Positions 9,094 to 17,167 of a stretch of DNA of 37,259 bases are shown here, in pieces. The position numbers were made by a program, and so were the translations under genes. Positions within the stretch are counted from its first letter, which is position 1. Each line of letters opens with the position of its first letter. The stretch lies in the NCBI GenBank assembly GCA_031276815.1, contig JAISMJ010000092.1, positions 1 through 37,259 on the forward strand, written 5' to 3'. The DNA is from Treponema sp. Lineage in GTDB: Bacteria; Spirochaetota; Spirochaetia; Treponematales; Breznakiellaceae. Under the pieces are notes generated by a model. The model was not told the origin of the DNA, searched no databases, and was given only the letters and a program-made list of their open reading frames with translations.

Positions 9094-11343
9094 CTAATAT
9101 TCCACTTTTATTAAATAGAGATTTATGCCGCTAGCTTTTGAGTAAATATATAGCGAGGCCGGACCTCCCGTATATGCAAAGGTATTGCTAGAAAGAGTAC
9201 TACTATCATCTGTAGTTGCTATTGTACCTAATTCCGCCTCTGCCGTAGCAACGCCTATATTACGCACGTTCCCATTGCTACCGGTAATGAGGTATACTCG
9301 TATCGTACAATCTCCGGTAACGTCAAATTTTAGAGCGCGTTTTGTTGTATCGCCGGTACCTTGAAGCTGTAAGCGGTGAGTAAAGGTATAGTCATCCAGA
9401 GATTTACCACTGGTACCAATCTTCATAGTATTAGTGCCATCAGCTATAAATGTTAAACCATCAATAGTTGTAGTGCTGGTTATATCCCCCGTTAAAGTAG
9501 TAAATTGGTCATCCGAGAAATTCCATTCTTTGTTCTCGCCGCTTCCGCCTGCGGAAACAGTAATTGATTTAGTTACGGTTATCGTGGTTGGAGTGGTTCC
9601 ATCAGTGGTTGTTGCTTGTGCCGTAAGCGTAACGCTCCCTGCCGCAAGTCCCTTGACCGTTACTTCCGCATTGGTAACCGGTTCACTTTGCTCTGCCCCT
9701 TCTACGATAAACTTAGCCTTGTCGGGATCACTCAGACTCCATGTAATAGCCGGATTCGTTACGGTAGGCGGAATATCCGTGGTGAACGTCTCAGTAAGGG
9801 TAACTGTAACGCTATCGTTACCAACAATGGCAAATTGCTCCACAGGCACATAATCAGCCGTTACCGTTATTTTGAGGAAAGCTTCAGCCGCCGCTTGATC
9901 ATCATTTGAAATCATCTGGATATATATGTCGCCCGGAGCGGTAACAGTAACATGCCCTTGTCCGTCTACGGTAATAGAATCAGAGCTTACATGCGCCTCC
10001 TCTAGGGAAACAGCGAATGAAGCGCCCGGTTCGTCAGCGTAGGACGGAATAATAATAGGAACAAGATCAATGCCGGATTGCGCCTCTGACCAACGGAACA
10101 GGGCGGTTTGCGGCGCGATTGCGGTACCGGTTCCCGCAGGAGTCGTAATGTCTCCGTTTTGTCGTATGCCGATACTGACGGCGGCAACCGGAACGGGTCT
10201 CGGCGTAGAAGCGGGCGTATAGAATACCGGAGAACCGGTGAGCTCATTCTCCCATACTCGTATCTGGGAAATTTCCGCCTTTACTCCCATAAGCGCGACG
10301 CCTAAGAAAACCGGCGTATTAGCAAGCACCGACCTCTCAGGTTCCGGATTCTGATTTGTCTCGGTTGGCTCCGGCGTGTATTTGACCAGCTTGCTTGCAT
10401 CGGCGGAAAGCAGTTGCCCATTCTTGCCGATCAATACTTCAGTACGGAAACCTTCGCTTGTACGGGTTACTTCCAATATATATTCGTCGTTTTTCCCCAC
10501 GGGCAGATTCAAGCCCGCAGCAGACGCCACCTCAGTGGGCTTACTCACCACCGACCGGATCGCATAGGGTGTAATCCCGCCGCTTCCGCCGCCTGTCCGG
10601 TAAAACACGCCGCCAACCTTCGATAATTCTCCGGGCTTTTGCGAACCTTCCTCACTCGGCGTAAACCCGCCTACGATGATGCCCTTACTCGTACTAGTAC
10701 TTGCTTGGGTCTCGGTCATTTTTACCCGCGCGCTTATCTTGAAATTACCGGTAAAAAGGTGGTCTATATAGAGAAATGTCGTATCATCAAAACCGGTGCT
10801 TGTTGAAAAAGTACCGGTCGGTCCTGCCGCGCTTGTCGTGTTGAAGAAGCTGTTTATCAAGTACCGGTTGTCGACCAACGCGGGAAGCGCGGTTGTACCA
10901 TCCTCTGAGCCGTCATGCGTTGTAGCGTTTGCGCCATTGTACTCGAATTGCAAGGCATACTGCGAAGCGGTATACACGACAGTAACCGCTATACTAGCTG
11001 TTACAGACGGGTATTCGACAGACGTTGCCGTAACAGTAACCGGTTGGGTTGTCGGCTCTGATCCGGCGGTTATTTCACCGGTAGTTTGGTTGACCGTTAC
11101 TTTGGAGGGATCACTCGAACTCCACTGGAACGTTGACCGGGCGTTTGTAGGCGTCTTCGTTATTTCCGGGGTGAACGAAGCGTTTATGACTAGTTCCTTC
11201 GTTGACGGAACGATTGATATGCCGCTTAATGCCGGCGGGGGGGGGGGGGGGTCGTCGTCTCCGCCAGAATTGCACGCCATGATGAGTACCATCGTTGCCG
11301 CTGCCAGCAGGACGGTACACCCACATAATAATTTCTTTTTCAT
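9094..11343 (-). CDS. Large surface lipoprotein with Ig-like (BIG2-type) domains and C-terminal beta-sandwich
   Basis: A 749-residue lipoprotein: signal peptide and lipobox LIMAC with Cys24, then a short Asp/Pro linker encoded by a 15-nt C run, a BIG2-like domain (about 38-125; FQWSSSDPSKVTVNQTTGEI is characteristic), a laminin/concanavalin-like middle region (about 128-370), and further BIG2-type repeats (about 400-590; ITWSLSDPDKAKF). The last 150 residues (ENKEWNFSDDQFTTLTGDI to NLYLIKVEY) resemble the beta-sandwich that accompanies pectate lyases in gut bacteroidetes and treponemes. It sits in a cluster with a PL9 pectate lyase, so carbohydrate adhesion is plausible. TAAGGAGTAATGTT precedes the ATG. 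The linker homopolymer makes it a likely phase-variable gene; it is in frame here. Confidence 0.85.
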   Translation of the reverse strand: MKKKLLCGCTVLLAAATMVLIMACNSGGDDDPPPPPPALSGISIVPSTKELVINASFTPEITKTPTNARSTFQWSSSDPSKVTVNQTTGEITAGSEPTTQPVTVTATSVEYPSVTASIAVTVVYTASQYALQFEYNGANATTHDGSEDGTTALPALVDNRYLINSFFNTTSAAGPTGTFSTSTGFDDTTFLYIDHLFTGNFKISARVKMTETQASTSTSKGIIVGGFTPSEEGSQKPGELSKVGGVFYRTGGGSGGITPYAIRSVVSKPTEVASAAGLNLPVGKNDEYILEVTRTSEGFRTEVLIGKNGQLLSADASKLVKYTPEPTETNQNPEPERSVLANTPVFLGVALMGVKAEISQIRVWENELTGSPVFYTPASTPRPVPVAAVSIGIRQNGDITTPAGTGTAIAPQTALFRWSEAQSGIDLVPIIIPSYADEPGASFAVSLEEAHVSSDSITVDGQGHVTVTAPGDIYIQMISNDDQAAAEAFLKITVTADYVPVEQFAIVGNDSVTVTLTETFTTDIPPTVTNPAITWSLSDPDKAKFIVEGAEQSEPVTNAEVTVKGLAAGSVTLTAQATTTDGTTPTTITVTKSITVSAGGSGENKEWNFSDDQFTTLTGDITSTTTIDGLTFIADGTNTMKIGTSGKSLDDYTFTHRLQLQGTGDTTKRALKFDVTGDCTIRVYLITGSNGNVRNIGVATAEAELGTIATTDDSSTLSSNTFAYTGGPASLYIYSKASGINLYLIKVEY
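11237..11251 (-). repeat. Homopolymeric G15/C15 tract inside a lipoprotein gene
   Basis: Fifteen consecutive G on the plus strand encode part of the proline linker directly after the lipidated Cys of the 749-residue lipoprotein. A gain or loss of one base would truncate the protein just after its signal peptide, an ideal on/off position. Confidence 0.9.
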
Positions 11344-11374
11344 AACATTACTCCTTAAAAAAATGTCATTCTAT

Positions 11375-11398
11375 AAAAATCGCTAACAGCGAATTTTT
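11375..11398 (-). terminator. Terminator downstream of DUF4469 gene and array B
   Basis: On the minus strand AAAAATTCGCT-GTT-AGCGATTTTT forms an A/T-flanked hairpin with one bulged base and a T run. It lies after array B, so array B is expected to be transcribed as the 3' UTR of the DUF4469 gene. The same A-rich left arm could also act for the opposite strand. Confidence 0.6.
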
Positions 11399-11448
11399 AT
11401 CCTTATTCATCAGGGCGTTCCGGTTCCGCCCTCATTGCTCACGCGGCG

Positions 11449-11540
11449 GTGAGAGACGCTCTCACCGCATAGTGAGAAGCTCTCTCACCACATAGTGAGA
11501 GACGCTCTCACCCCGTAGTGAGAAGCTCTCTCACGCAGGG
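11449..11540. repeat. Array B: four 23-bp hairpin repeats at the 3' end of the DUF4469 gene
   Basis: Four units of exactly 23 bp start at 11449, 11472, 11495 and 11518. Units alternate between GTGAGAGACGCTCTCAC (arms GTGAGAG/CTCTCAC) and GTGAGAAGCTCTCTCAC, each followed by 6 bp (CGCATA, CACATA, CCCGTA), giving a 46-bp higher-order repeat. The last unit covers the stop codon of the DUF4469 gene (11531-11533). A partial CTCAC at 11439 lets the first unit pair alternatively. RNA from either strand would form serial hairpins. Confidence 0.93.
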
Positions 11541-12262
11541 GTGGGAGGTTCCGGTGAAGAAACGGTTAATTCCTTCTCAAACGTAAAAGTATGCGGCGTT
11601 TTGAGCGCCTTTCCGGCTCCATACTGGGTAATTATCTTCACGCGGTACGCGCCGGCTGAAAGTTCGGGGATAACCGCGATGATTTCCGAGGGGTTATTAA
11701 CCACAATGTCCGAAGGGTCCACTTTGACCGGATCGCCTGCAACCGGAACAAAGTACAAGCCCACGGACGCATCGTTCCCCGCGATCTTGAGTTTTACGCC
11801 GGAGAGTTTTACGTTCCGGCCGGGCGTCAGCTTCTCGTTCACAGAACCGCTCTTTATGTCCGTTACGCCGGTAATCACCGTGCCGCTGATCACCGCGGCT
11901 ACTTTCTTGACCTTGACGCTGGCGATTGCGGTATGTAACGCGGTGCCTGCATGAAGGTTGAGCTTGACCGTGTGCCGGGACGGATCAAACGTATCGTCAG
12001 GACCCAAAAATACGCCCTGTATGCTGGGAAACGCATTGAACAGTAGAAAATGAATCGCCCCGCCCTCCGCAATGATCTGGGCTATGACCTGCGTTGCGGC
12101 TTCCAGCACGGCTGCGACATCTGAACGGGTCAAACCCGCCCCAATCTGCATGATACGCTCGGTGAGATCTTCGCGAGTATATGAAATGACGTTGATCACC
12201 TGCGCCCGATAATCCCTTTTATCCTCAGTAAGAAGATTTTCCTCAAGGGTGTACTCTAACAT
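11531..12262 (-). CDS. HU-like DNA-binding domain plus DUF4469 (Ig-like fold) protein
   Basis: A 243-residue cytoplasmic-looking protein with no signal peptide. Residues about 1-115 match the HU/IHF-like N-terminal domain seen in bacteroidetes and treponemes (MLEYTLEENLLTE, YTREDLTERIMQIGAGLTRSD, then FPSIQGVFLGPDDTFDPSRH). Residues about 125-230 are an Ig-like DUF4469 domain (GRNVKLSGVKLKI, NNPSEIIAVIPELSAGAYRV). The molecular role of the family is unknown; DNA binding is inferred from the HU-like fold. GAGGAGAAAGCGTT precedes the ATG. It begins 16 bp after the pectate lyase gene, so the two are probably co-transcribed. Its stop codon lies within the hairpin repeat array B, making that array a candidate target or regulator. 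Confidence 0.82.
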   Translation of the reverse strand: MLEYTLEENLLTEDKRDYRAQVINVISYTREDLTERIMQIGAGLTRSDVAAVLEAATQVIAQIIAEGGAIHFLLFNAFPSIQGVFLGPDDTFDPSRHTVKLNLHAGTALHTAIASVKVKKVAAVISGTVITGVTDIKSGSVNEKLTPGRNVKLSGVKLKIAGNDASVGLYFVPVAGDPVKVDPSDIVVNNPSEIIAVIPELSAGAYRVKIITQYGAGKALKTPHTFTFEKELTVSSPEPPTPA

Positions 12263-12278
12263 AACGCTTTCTCCTCTA

Positions 12279-14894
12279 TTACAATGCGGTTTCGTCCGCA
12301 GTATGTAATCCCACAGCTCCGGGTTGCGTCCCGTTGATGTTTTTTGTTTTCATAAAGCCGTTCAGTACAAACGAACCATCGTCATGCCGTTCAATGAACG
12401 TTCCCCGTATTGAAGGATCAAAGGGCGCGGCGTCCGCCAAAGGCAGCGCCGCAGACACGATGTTCCGCTCGACCGTGATGACCGACTCGCTCTTATTACG
12501 GGAGGCGTTATTACGCCACACGTACCCGACCGCGGTTAAAGTGGTGTCCCACCACACGCCGTCATTGCTATGCTCGCCGGAATCCGCAGAATACATGGAA
12601 AGTACGCGAGTTACCTTTGCGTCAAGCCCCTCAGGAGCGCTCGTGCCTGAGCCGTATATCGCGTAGCCTCTGCCGGCGTTTTCGTACGCGGTGCAGTTGG
12701 TAAGGATGAGCGCGGGGTTTGAATTGCTGGTAAAGCCGTCCGCGCCGTTGAGAAACGCCAGGGAATTGACGATAGTATGCTTGACGGCTATGCCTTCGCC
12801 GCCCATCTTGAAGCCGTTGCCGCCCGATGCGGCGAACACCGCTTCGCCTGATCCGTCCGCATTAAAGTAGTACCCGTTGCTGTAGGCTATGCAATATTCA
12901 ACCGTTACGGCTCCTATCGCGCCGGTTTCCTTCTTGGTAAAGAGGTCCCAGCCGTCATCGCAGTTGTGGTGCGCGACGCACCATGTAAATGTATTGCCGT
13001 TGCCCACTGTGAGCTTCGCGGCGAAACCGTCCGCGTCTTCGCGGGCTTCGTCTTTGTTGTTAAAGGATTCGCAGAACGAAATAGTATTATGGGAGGGCCA
13101 CAACGCCTTAGGCTCCGCGCTTTCTCCGCTTATCTGCAAGCCGGTATCGCCGTTATTGTAGGTTTTTACCCATTCAACAACGTTATGGTGTCCCATGACG
13201 GTGAGCCCCTTCCGTTTAACCGGAGCTGTGCCTCGCACATGTATCCCGCTTATCTTCCAATAATCCCCTCGCAGTTCAAAGCCCTTGTTTTGGGGATTAC
13301 CCTGAAAGTCGATGATCGCCTTGTCGCGATGTTCCGCTTTCAAAGTTTTGAGATTTCCCTCGCTGCCGTTATTGTAGCGCGGTATTGACACAGCGAGCGG
13401 CGTGTATACGCCATCCTGCATGATCACGGACTTTCCCGCCTGTACGTAGGCGATGCCTGTATCAAGGTCAACGGGATTATCCCGCGTCCCCGCATTGGAT
13501 GCGCGTCCGGTAGGAGACACCCAGATATTGCCTTCGGCGTCTCCCATTGTTTTTTTATTGACGATAAAGGAGAGGGAAAGCGGCGTGGTAGAAGACAAGA
13601 GGTACTGGGATTGAGACTGGTTGTTGTCAGGGTAGAACATAAGGCGGAACACGTTGTCCCCGTCGCGGAGTCCCGATGCGGGTACGGTAAACTGCGTAAA
13701 CGGTACCGAGACCGCGTTGGACTTCTCAACCATCCACTCGCCTCGTCCCGCCTCTTCCGGCAGCGCCGTACCGTTGAGAGAGACGGCAAGCGTCCCCTCT
13801 ACGTTTGATCGGGCGACAAGGGTATAGTCAGAAGACGCCGAAGCGGATGGGGAATATATGTTTAAGGAAGGCTCGATAAGAACAGAATCAGGTATGACGC
13901 GGGGAGCGCAATCATCAACGTTAGCTTCAGAATAGCTGATGTTCCGTACAGTAATTTCCGCGCTGCGCGCCGCAAAAAAACCTATGTAATAATGGTCTTT
14001 ATTTATTGCGGTTAAAAGATCTGGTTCAGGTATGAAGTAGTCGAACCGTTGGCCGGCATAACCCCCCCCCCCCCCCGCGCCGCGTACAGTTTGGAGGATC
14101 ACGGCGTTAAAGCCGGAATTCGTCTTCTCCAGCGTCAGGCTATATTTTGATCCCGCGCTTGGAAAATCGGGGCGGTCGTTCATCGTGGGATAGGGCGAAT
14201 AATCCGGCAGTTCACGGGGAGTAAAATCAAACACGGCTTTTGAGGCGTCGGCTATCTTACCCGGGTCATTATCAGTTATACATTCGCCGGTTGGATCCGT
14301 AACGCCGGTACGCCAATATACCCGCGCGCCCCGTTTCACGCCGCCGACCATTATCATGTTTCCCGTACCGCCGGTAGACCCCGCATAATACTCGCCGTCA
14401 GCCTCGACGCCTCTCAGCTCTTCCATAGTGTACCCCGGATATTGCGGCACGTAGTCCCGCGCCATAAGCCCGAAACCTTCCTGCCCGTTCAATTCGGTAC
14501 GGCCGTTCTGCAAACCAAAGAATTTAACTTCCACTTCAGCGGAAAGCGAAAAATTCATATTCGCGTCAACTTCCTTAAAGTAAAACGTTATGCCGTCCTC
14601 ACTGCCCGCAATTTTTCCCGCGCTGCTAGTGCTATTGTTGGCATAAAGCGTGATGCTACCATCTGGTTCTATCGTCGTTTTATTGCTCGGCGCTTTGTTG
14701 GCGCTTGTCCCGAAGTTGAGCCGATGCATGTTCGATGCGTTCAACTCCACGGCATGGAAGGCATTGGGATTGTTTTCCGTATATTCGCCGAAGCCGGAAA
14801 ATGCGTTACATGAACATAATGCGGATATTATAACAAGAGCTTTGACCAACACACAAAGCGTGGTTATGGACAAACCGAATATTTTTTTATTCAC
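12279..14894 (-). CDS. Pectate lyase, polysaccharide lyase family 9, lipoprotein
   Basis: An 871-residue secreted lipoprotein. The start is GTG at 14894 with AGAGGG upstream; the lipobox is ALCSC (Cys29). Residues about 40-325 form a concanavalin-like sandwich, about 330-445 an Ig-like linker, and about 455-860 the right-handed parallel beta-helix of PL9. The Ca2+-binding segments DADGFAAK (620-627) and CDDGWDLF (645-652) and the GNGFKMGG segment with the probable catalytic Lys696 are all present, so beta-elimination of polygalacturonate is predicted. A C15 tract (14062-14076) encodes a Gly run at about 273-278 and could switch the gene off before the catalytic domain. It is followed by the DUF4469 gene. 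Confidence 0.9.
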   Translation of the reverse strand: MNKKIFGLSITTLCVLVKALVIISALCSCNAFSGFGEYTENNPNAFHAVELNASNMHRLNFGTSANKAPSNKTTIEPDGSITLYANNSTSSAGKIAGSEDGITFYFKEVDANMNFSLSAEVEVKFFGLQNGRTELNGQEGFGLMARDYVPQYPGYTMEELRGVEADGEYYAGSTGGTGNMIMVGGVKRGARVYWRTGVTDPTGECITDNDPGKIADASKAVFDFTPRELPDYSPYPTMNDRPDFPSAGSKYSLTLEKTNSGFNAVILQTVRGAGGGGGYAGQRFDYFIPEPDLLTAINKDHYYIGFFAARSAEITVRNISYSEANVDDCAPRVIPDSVLIEPSLNIYSPSASASSDYTLVARSNVEGTLAVSLNGTALPEEAGRGEWMVEKSNAVSVPFTQFTVPASGLRDGDNVFRLMFYPDNNQSQSQYLLSSTTPLSLSFIVNKKTMGDAEGNIWVSPTGRASNAGTRDNPVDLDTGIAYVQAGKSVIMQDGVYTPLAVSIPRYNNGSEGNLKTLKAEHRDKAIIDFQGNPQNKGFELRGDYWKISGIHVRGTAPVKRKGLTVMGHHNVVEWVKTYNNGDTGLQISGESAEPKALWPSHNTISFCESFNNKDEAREDADGFAAKLTVGNGNTFTWCVAHHNCDDGWDLFTKKETGAIGAVTVEYCIAYSNGYYFNADGSGEAVFAASGGNGFKMGGEGIAVKHTIVNSLAFLNGADGFTSNSNPALILTNCTAYENAGRGYAIYGSGTSAPEGLDAKVTRVLSMYSADSGEHSNDGVWWDTTLTAVGYVWRNNASRNKSESVITVERNIVSAALPLADAAPFDPSIRGTFIERHDDGSFVLNGFMKTKNINGTQPGAVGLHTADETAL
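14062..14076 (-). repeat. Homopolymeric C15/G15 tract inside the pectate lyase gene
   Basis: Fifteen C on the plus strand (G15 in the coding strand) encode consecutive Gly codons around residue 275, upstream of the catalytic beta-helix. It is the same length as the tract in the neighbouring lipoprotein gene. The reading frame is intact as given. Confidence 0.9.
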
Positions 14895-15217: not shown

Positions 15218-16990
15218 CTATTCCGCAACAAGAGCCGTACATCCCGCAAAAGCAGTACCGGCAACGGTTGCGCTTTCCGGCATGTATACGCTAACCAGAT
15301 TGTTGCAGTTCTTGAAGGCAGCGTCATCAATTTGCATTACGCTGGGTAGTGAAATAGTAGCGAGCGCGGTACAGCCGCTGAACGAATGATGTCCAATGGT
15401 TGCGACTTTTGGAACGTATACGGACGTCAAGGCTACGCAATTATAAAACGCTCCATGTACGTTGTCTTTCGTGGTATTGGCGATGTTTGTTGCTTCAGGC
15501 AGAGAGACGGATGAAAGATTCACACACCCATCGAATGCTCCCCGTTCTACCGTCAAGACGCCGGGCATATCTGCGAAAACAAGCGCCGTACAACCAAGAA
15601 GCGCATTACTATCAAGCTTGGTAATGGAAGCCGGAAGAACAACCGAAACGACGTACTGTTTTCCCGGGGCAGTTGTAGGAGTGATACTGACAAACGTGTT
15701 TCCACTGCTGCCGCTTAAATCCAGCGCGACGTACCGGTTAAGCGCATTGTATAACGTCCGCAAGGTGTTTCCGGTTGTTCCGCTACCGGATATATTTACG
15801 CCATTCATGGTAACATGGTAGGGATACTCTTGCGTATTGGGCGGGAGCGCGGCAAGCGCTTTGGCAAGACTTTCAACACTATCCGCTTCTATACTCGCGG
15901 GCGGATCAACAGACAAGAGTATCTCCCGCCCGTGCGGTACGCCGTTTTTCACACCGGCAAACGATAAAAAGTGCCTGCCGCTGTGTAATCCATATGCGTT
16001 AATGAAAAACGCCGCTTCCGTGTTGTTTCCGCTTGATGCAGGAGCAACCGGTTGTCCGTCCAACCAACATTCGATCCGTGTAAAACCCGTTACCGTTAAG
16101 GACAATGATGAAGGAACGCCTTCGGCGCCGGTTCCGGTGAGGATCACAGGTCCGGGAGGCAATCCCCGTATGTCGATGACTTCTCCGGCGCCGATACTGA
16201 TCTCAAGCGCGGAAGATTCCGGTTCGGCATCGTGCGGGGGGAAATCACCCATCGTAAACTCCATGTCCGGCAATGCGGTAGTAGTACCGGAATAGATGTA
16301 CACGACTTCACTCCGTCCGGTCTCCGCGCCTCCTGATGACAAGGTAATCTCCACGAGGTAATAACCGGGCGGCAGGCTCACGGAGCCTTCGCTTTGTTCA
16401 AGCATATCGACTTCGCTATACGGTGAAAACGCGCCGTCTTTCAATACCGAGAGTAGCATACTACCGCTTTCGACCGCATCAGCCGGAAACCGTACACGCC
16501 ACGTAAACGTGCCATGTATACCGCTTTCCGTGACTGGTTTATTCATCACAATCTCGGCTTGGGTTGTTCGCCCTGCGACTACCGTTACCTCGACGCTGCC
16601 GCATACCGCTGGTACGGGTACCGAACCCGCGGAATTTGTCCAGCCCGTAGCGGTTATGATCCACGTACCCGGTTCAAGCGCGATCTCTACGCTTGTTTTG
16701 TGTTCCAAAACGACATCCGGCGCGCTTTTTCCGTTTTCGCCGGTAAAGATCAGCGTATATTTGACAAAATCTCCGGTATCGGGGTAGACAGTACGCTGGT
16801 TCGACCCAGCGATCCGAATCAGCGCCCGTCCTGCGGCGTCTTCCCGATCCTGATGATCATTGTCTGAACACGCCGTAAACATACCGGCGTACAACAAGGC
16901 GAGCGCGACTGCCAGCGCAGTCAATGCGCCGCGTAAACCGCAGGAGATGTTCTCCTGTCTGTGCTTTTTAATTGGTATTTGTTGTTGCAT
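15218..16990 (-). CDS. BspA-like leucine-rich-repeat surface lipoprotein
   Basis: A 590-residue lipoprotein starting at the ATG at 16990, chosen for GGAGG 8 nt upstream. The signal peptide ends in lipobox FTAC with Cys41. Residues about 60-390 are a series of beta-sandwich-like segments (YTLIFTGENGKSAPDVVLE, PPGYYLVEITLSSGG). From about 440 to the end come TpLRR/LRR_5 repeats of BspA type: LPASITKLDSNALLGCTAL, CVNLSSVSLPEATNI, CTALATISLPSVMQIDDAAF. BspA-like LRRs mediate adhesion in treponemes and oral or gut anaerobes. The protein ends in a final LRR cap (CTALVAE), so it is probably complete. It precedes the pectate lyase gene in the same direction, but 323 bp separate them. Confidence 0.88.
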   Translation of the reverse strand: MQQQIPIKKHRQENISCGLRGALTALAVALALLYAGMFTACSDNDHQDREDAAGRALIRIAGSNQRTVYPDTGDFVKYTLIFTGENGKSAPDVVLEHKTSVEIALEPGTWIITATGWTNSAGSVPVPAVCGSVEVTVVAGRTTQAEIVMNKPVTESGIHGTFTWRVRFPADAVESGSMLLSVLKDGAFSPYSEVDMLEQSEGSVSLPPGYYLVEITLSSGGAETGRSEVVYIYSGTTTALPDMEFTMGDFPPHDAEPESSALEISIGAGEVIDIRGLPPGPVILTGTGAEGVPSSLSLTVTGFTRIECWLDGQPVAPASSGNNTEAAFFINAYGLHSGRHFLSFAGVKNGVPHGREILLSVDPPASIEADSVESLAKALAALPPNTQEYPYHVTMNGVNISGSGTTGNTLRTLYNALNRYVALDLSGSSGNTFVSITPTTAPGKQYVVSVVLPASITKLDSNALLGCTALVFADMPGVLTVERGAFDGCVNLSSVSLPEATNIANTTKDNVHGAFYNCVALTSVYVPKVATIGHHSFSGCTALATISLPSVMQIDDAAFKNCNNLVSVYMPESATVAGTAFAGCTALVAE

Positions 16991-17167
16991 TATAATAACC
17001 TCCATACGTATATAGAAGGTTAGGATGTAATTTGCATTGAATAGATGAGAAAAAAGCAGCTTTTCATAGCATTTATGACGACTTGCGTCATTATGATGAC
17101 ATTTATTCCCGTGTGTGCGACACAAGGGAATAATGATGTTCATACGACGCGACAGCGCCGGCGGCAG

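Follow-up and report, generated by a model that had tools for sequence, protein, structure and literature searches.

Poly-G/C tracts in two neighbouring surface-protein genes of a Treponema sp. as probable contingency loci of a 78-tract phasome

Two neighbouring genes of a Treponema sp. genome (G000) each carry a 15-nt homopolymer tract. The two tracts are most probably poly-G/C contingency loci, which vary in phase by slipped-strand mispairing and form part of a phasome of 78 tracts whose lengths lie near a preferred value of 15. Phase variation by tract slippage had been suggested in a preliminary description of this DNA. It is the best-supported reading in view of the frame dependence of the products, the presence of OFF genes, the different frames seen in sister species and the tracts kept or moved at orthologous loci. 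The local two-gene system envisaged in that description was too narrow, as the 78 tracts are distributed genome-wide.

The window tracts and their genes

The window, which is the whole 37,259-base stretch of DNA that was analyzed, corresponds to contig C92 of the 2.37 Mb genome assembly (131 contigs). The first tract (11237..11251) lies in a lipoprotein gene (9094..11343, minus strand) that encodes 749 amino acids and contains a Big_2 Ig-like domain at residues 41–108. The second tract (14062..14076) lies in a gene (12279..14894, minus strand) encoding an 871-amino acid right-handed β-helix protein that is Pel9A-like (polysaccharide lyase-like) and has both a signal sequence and a lipobox-like LCSC motif. 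With both genes on the minus strand, the plus-strand G15 of the lipoprotein gene corresponds to C15 in coding orientation (Pro codons ~ 32–36), and the plus-strand C15 of the lyase-like gene to G15 (Gly codons ~ 274–278). The longest remaining G or C run in the window is 6.

The coordinates and the 15-nt lengths first given for the two tracts were both correct, as was the placement of the second tract ahead of the catalytic domain, the β-helix of the lyase-like protein spanning residues ~ 458–746. The first tract had been placed directly after the lipidated Cys, and is in fact located 7 residues past the lipobox Cys (VLIMAC-NSGGDDD-PPPPPP). Adhesion and pectin degradation, the functions proposed for the two products, stand as domain-level guesses; they derive from the Big_2 Ig-like domain and from a β-helix (Beta_helix, 3.5e-10) whose Pel9A-like match (8.5e-06) scores 25.4 bits and barely passes the cut-off of 25.2.

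A gene with HU-DNA_bdg and DUF4469 domains (11531..12262, minus strand) occupies the interval separating the tract genes and follows the lyase-like gene at a distance of 17 nt. A BspA-type leucine-rich-repeat gene (15218..17143, with the start at 16990 or 17143), which is devoid of a tract, lies upstream on the same strand.

Frame dependence of the products

The computed products of both window genes are switched on or off by a change of one base. The lipoprotein gene yields 749 amino acids with a tract of 15, 38 with 14 and 77 with 16. The lyase-like gene yields 871, 293 and 289 amino acids, respectively, and the products at 14 and 16 stop ahead of the catalytic β-helix. The assembled sequence has an open frame for both genes, a point against the contingency-locus reading. 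Slipped-strand mispairing during replication would add or remove one base of the tract and shift the reading frame. The lipoprotein would thereby alternate between the 749-residue form, ON at 12, 15 or 18, and a stub of 38–77 residues, and the lyase-like protein between the 871-residue form and a stub of ~ 290 residues lacking the catalytic β-helix. Slippage would serve as the mutational step, the population would switch reversibly, and the benefit would come from diversification of the surface.

The same dependence on frame is observed in other tract genes. Those in the ON state include two solute-binding proteins (L055, with 454 amino acids at 15 versus 40 and 38; L057, with 382 versus 57 and 52), oppD (351 versus 37 and 39) and a short epimerase-like gene (197 versus 57 and 47). 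Two genes are out of frame at 16 and open at 15, L088_4980 (18 versus 506 amino acids) and L080 (78 versus 309). A radical-SAM gene stops after 188 amino acids at a G14 tract, and the sister genomes have open frames of ~ 400–450 amino acids there, with no tract. The lipoprotein L033 is ON at 16, and its paralogue L058 is OFF, with 17 amino acids at 15 and 590 at 14. Thus, both frames occur in nature between the paralogues L033 and L058 and, as described below, in oppC across sister species, whereas the window genes themselves are seen in the ON frame only.

A separate population of tracts in the genome

A search of the genome for runs of at least 9 returned 80 places, and run lengths were counted in 405 kb of sequence surrounding these 80 places. 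The number of G/C runs falls from 234 of length 5 to 32 of length 6, 5 of length 7, none of length 8, 2 of length 9 and none of lengths 10–12. It then rises to 78 tracts of 13–16 nt (3 of 13, 16 of 14, 52 of 15 and 7 of 16), and none is longer than 16. Because G/C runs dwindle to near nil at 8–12 before these 78 appear, a chance origin is excluded; the tracts are a separate population centred on 15, and the lengths between the two modes are almost absent both in and out of genes. The window tracts among them are homopolymers far above chance length, each inside a gene. A/T runs in the same 405 kb end at 9.

Of the 78 tracts, 12 are no more than 200 nt away from a contig end, compared with 1.7 expected, which indicates that assembly was interrupted at tracts; mixed lengths, repeats or low coverage would have this effect. 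The contigs concerned are C2, C20, C21, C23, C25, C47, C62, C68, C100, C114 and C121 (both ends).

Placement and gene classes

According to coding calls from a simple purpose-made gene caller, 27 of the 78 tracts are inside genes, a depletion relative to the 76% of sequence that is coding, and 51 are outside. In 38 of 156 strand tests, an open frame led into the tract from a start codon that has a Shine-Dalgarno-like motif, a moderate excess over the 15% obtained at random positions. Pfam families among the tract genes comprise glycosyltransferases, an acyltransferase, a methyltransferase, a nucleotidyltransferase, solute-binding proteins, an ABC ATPase, a histidine kinase and a YidC-like membrane protein. 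By class, the tract genes (glycosyltransferases, transporters, lipoproteins and regulators) fit the surface, glycan and transport functions typical of phase-variable genes.

Several extragenic tracts (L032, L042, L046, L081, L084, L088 and L094) lie within short frames that have a Shine-Dalgarno-like motif. These frames encode a short peptide start followed by five prolines, for example MNKSYLEFDPPPPP. As poly-proline could stall ribosomes, leader-peptide control at extragenic tracts is conceivable from the sequence. Relatives of the HU-DNA_bdg/DUF4469-type window gene (L083, L085, L074 (3007) and L054 (6468)) have a tract upstream of the start, a coding-strand C tract located 77–81 nt before the start in three copies and 153 nt before it in one.

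Tract numbers and lengths in related genomes

Tracts of at least 12 occur in all 11 of the other same-genus genomes searched, with 20–179 in each. Many other genera of the family contain dozens (271 in G062), and most genomes in the other families of the order have 0–5. The commonest length, determined in the relatives from a subset of tracts with contig-end junk excluded, is 12 in G010, 14 in G062 and G006, 15 in G000, G001 and G201, and ~ 18 in G199. The spread of lengths in G062 and G001 is about as narrow as that in G000, and it is broader in G199, G201 and G006. Since the mode can be 14, selection on the reading frame alone does not fix the preferred length.

These preferences, which differ from one species to another, suggest that tract length has a set-point imposed in trans by the replication or repair machinery, and that this set-point would create and maintain the whole phasome, a proposal that we put forward tentatively and regard as somewhat doubtful. 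If it is true, the switching of scores of genes would be tuned together. A G-quadruplex was considered as the reason for the value of 15, since an intramolecular quadruplex with three tiers and one-base loops needs a run of at least this length, but the peaks at 12 in G010 and 14 in G062 do not support it. Loss of mismatch repair, that is, a mutator genome, was rejected, judging by MutS: MutS_I is present in G000 and in all the same-genus genomes, therefore MutS loss is not the cause of the tracts.

Orthologous loci in sister species

The tract of the lyase-like gene is species-specific. Its orthologues in four Treponema sp. MAGs (L125–L128) lack a tract, and in L125 and L126 an ordinary G6 is found at the corresponding loop. 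Being species-specific, this tract could be recent and neutral. The lipoprotein orthologues in L125–L127 also lack a tract.

Other loci display persistence. An in-frame G15 in the acyltransferase gene is common to G000, G001 and G002, with differing adjoining residues, and a G006 tract with a matching flank falls inside the match found in that genome. Five sister species carry an N-terminal tract at the same site of oppC, with an open frame at G15 (G001 and G002) or G9 (G003) and a closed frame at G14 (G004 and G006). The G000 oppC has no tract; a tract is located instead inside oppD of the same operon, where G000 has AVGGGGGISYSL and the five sisters have AVGG-VSYSL or a similar sequence. At the sugar-binding protein gene, the G000 tract is positioned just past the signal peptide and four sisters have a tract 183–460 nt upstream of the start; a fifth (L155) also has one, though with a miscalled start. 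The comparison shows tracts that are retained between species at certain loci and moved at other loci, and suggests that they arise from short G runs. Under the contingency-locus reading, short G runs would give birth to tracts, and a genome-particular equilibrium length would produce the two-peaked length spectrum.

Alternative explanations

A mutational drive devoid of adaptive switching, in which replication expands short G runs to a set-point and tracts pile up where they do little harm, would account for lengths that are bimodal, narrow and genome-specific in and out of genes, for species-specific births such as those in the lyase-like and oppD genes, and for the strong depletion in coding sequence, which also counts for the contingency-locus reading. 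Nonetheless, we consider it unlikely. Such a drive does not explain why tracts at orthologous sites are kept while their flanks diverge (acyltransferase and oppC), why the G000 operon that lost the oppC tract has one in oppD, or why the affected genes belong to typical phase-variable classes. Nor does it remove switching, as tracts of this length would still shift the frame. The conserved acyltransferase tract and the oppC/oppD relocation favor selection for switching, though they do not separate it fully from mutational drive.

The location of both window tracts, in frame and either separating domains or following a signal peptide, is also what would be expected of flexible poly-Gly or poly-Pro spacers that change in steps of three and tune length rather than act as on/off switches. 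However, most tracts are extragenic, several genes have a closed frame, 14 is the modal length in G062 and G006, and a linker needs no single repeated codon, all of which make this reading very improbable. That the tracts are artefacts of sequencing or assembly is more improbable still. The assembly is fragmented, with the excess of tracts at contig ends noted above, and some contig-end poly-G in related genomes resembles junk. However, coherent coding sequence is present on both flanks, and separate genomes share tracts at orthologous sites. Artefact, one of the outcomes named at the outset as refuting phase variation, is contradicted and excluded by this recurrence in separate assemblies together with tracts of 16–21 nt in G049, a single-contig genome of the same family.

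Relation to known phase-variable systems

Poly-G phase variation has been studied mostly in pathogens, with immune evasion as the usual explanation, and the preferred tract length in Campylobacter is ~ 8–11. The contingency loci of Neisseria, Helicobacter and Campylobacter resemble those described here in that G/C tracts switch the frame of surface and glycan genes. The present tracts differ in organism and niche, in the longer preferred length of 15 and in a preference that varies between related species. Homopolymeric tracts have been reported in 29 coding regions of Helicobacter canadensis (PMC2823697), and phase variation in 115 genes of Neisseria meningitidis (PMC5084427). TprL and poly-G tracts have been treated in Treponema pallidum (PMC7864442), likewise a spirochete with poly-G tracts in or near surface-protein genes (the tpr family and others), for which changes in length have been proposed to alter expression. 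In contrast, the genome described here belongs to a different family of the order, contains 78 tracts with one narrow preferred length and many sugar-transport and glycan genes, and comes from a probable gut symbiont rather than a vertebrate pathogen.

Judging from related MAGs, the pattern of kinship and the literature, the host spirochete probably belongs to the Breznakiellaceae and is probably a termite-gut symbiont, apparently a mutualist. A literature search, with subscription journals mostly outside its reach, found no report joining termite spirochetes to phase variation, and the recent spirochete genome papers examined do not mention it. The mechanism is known; what seems to be new is its scale and a length set-point particular to each genome. 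In apparent mutualists of the termite gut, so large a phasome suggests drivers other than immune evasion, for example phages, protist attachment or fluctuating substrates. With 20 to 179 tracts per genome and differing preferred lengths, the genus is a natural series for tracing the birth, loss and relocation of contingency loci gene by gene. Apparent frameshifts in MAGs of termite-gut spirochetes may be switch states and not pseudogenes.

Flanking sequences and duplicated loci

Immediately 5′ of the G run, 64 of the 65 G000 tracts left after deduplication have C or T and one has A (p ~ 1e-10 versus one third), as exemplified in the window by positions 11236 and 14077. The two bases 3′ of the run are mostly AT or TA. 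The 5′ bias differs in relatives, with C nearly always in G201 and mostly T in G199.

Twenty-three tracts are linked by related flanks and are interpreted as duplicated loci, for example L035, L037, L048, L063, L076, L087 and L092. Low-complexity frames adjoin the tract in several of them, for example repeated ADESKAI or ARTPFAQ units. A mobile element carrying the tract was rejected as a general source, because the other 55 tracts, including both window tracts, are outside this linked set. Between the DUF4469 and lipoprotein genes, at 11449–11534, a 23-bp unit that has inverted-repeat halves, GTGAGAAACGCTCTCACCACATA, is repeated 3.7 times in tandem.
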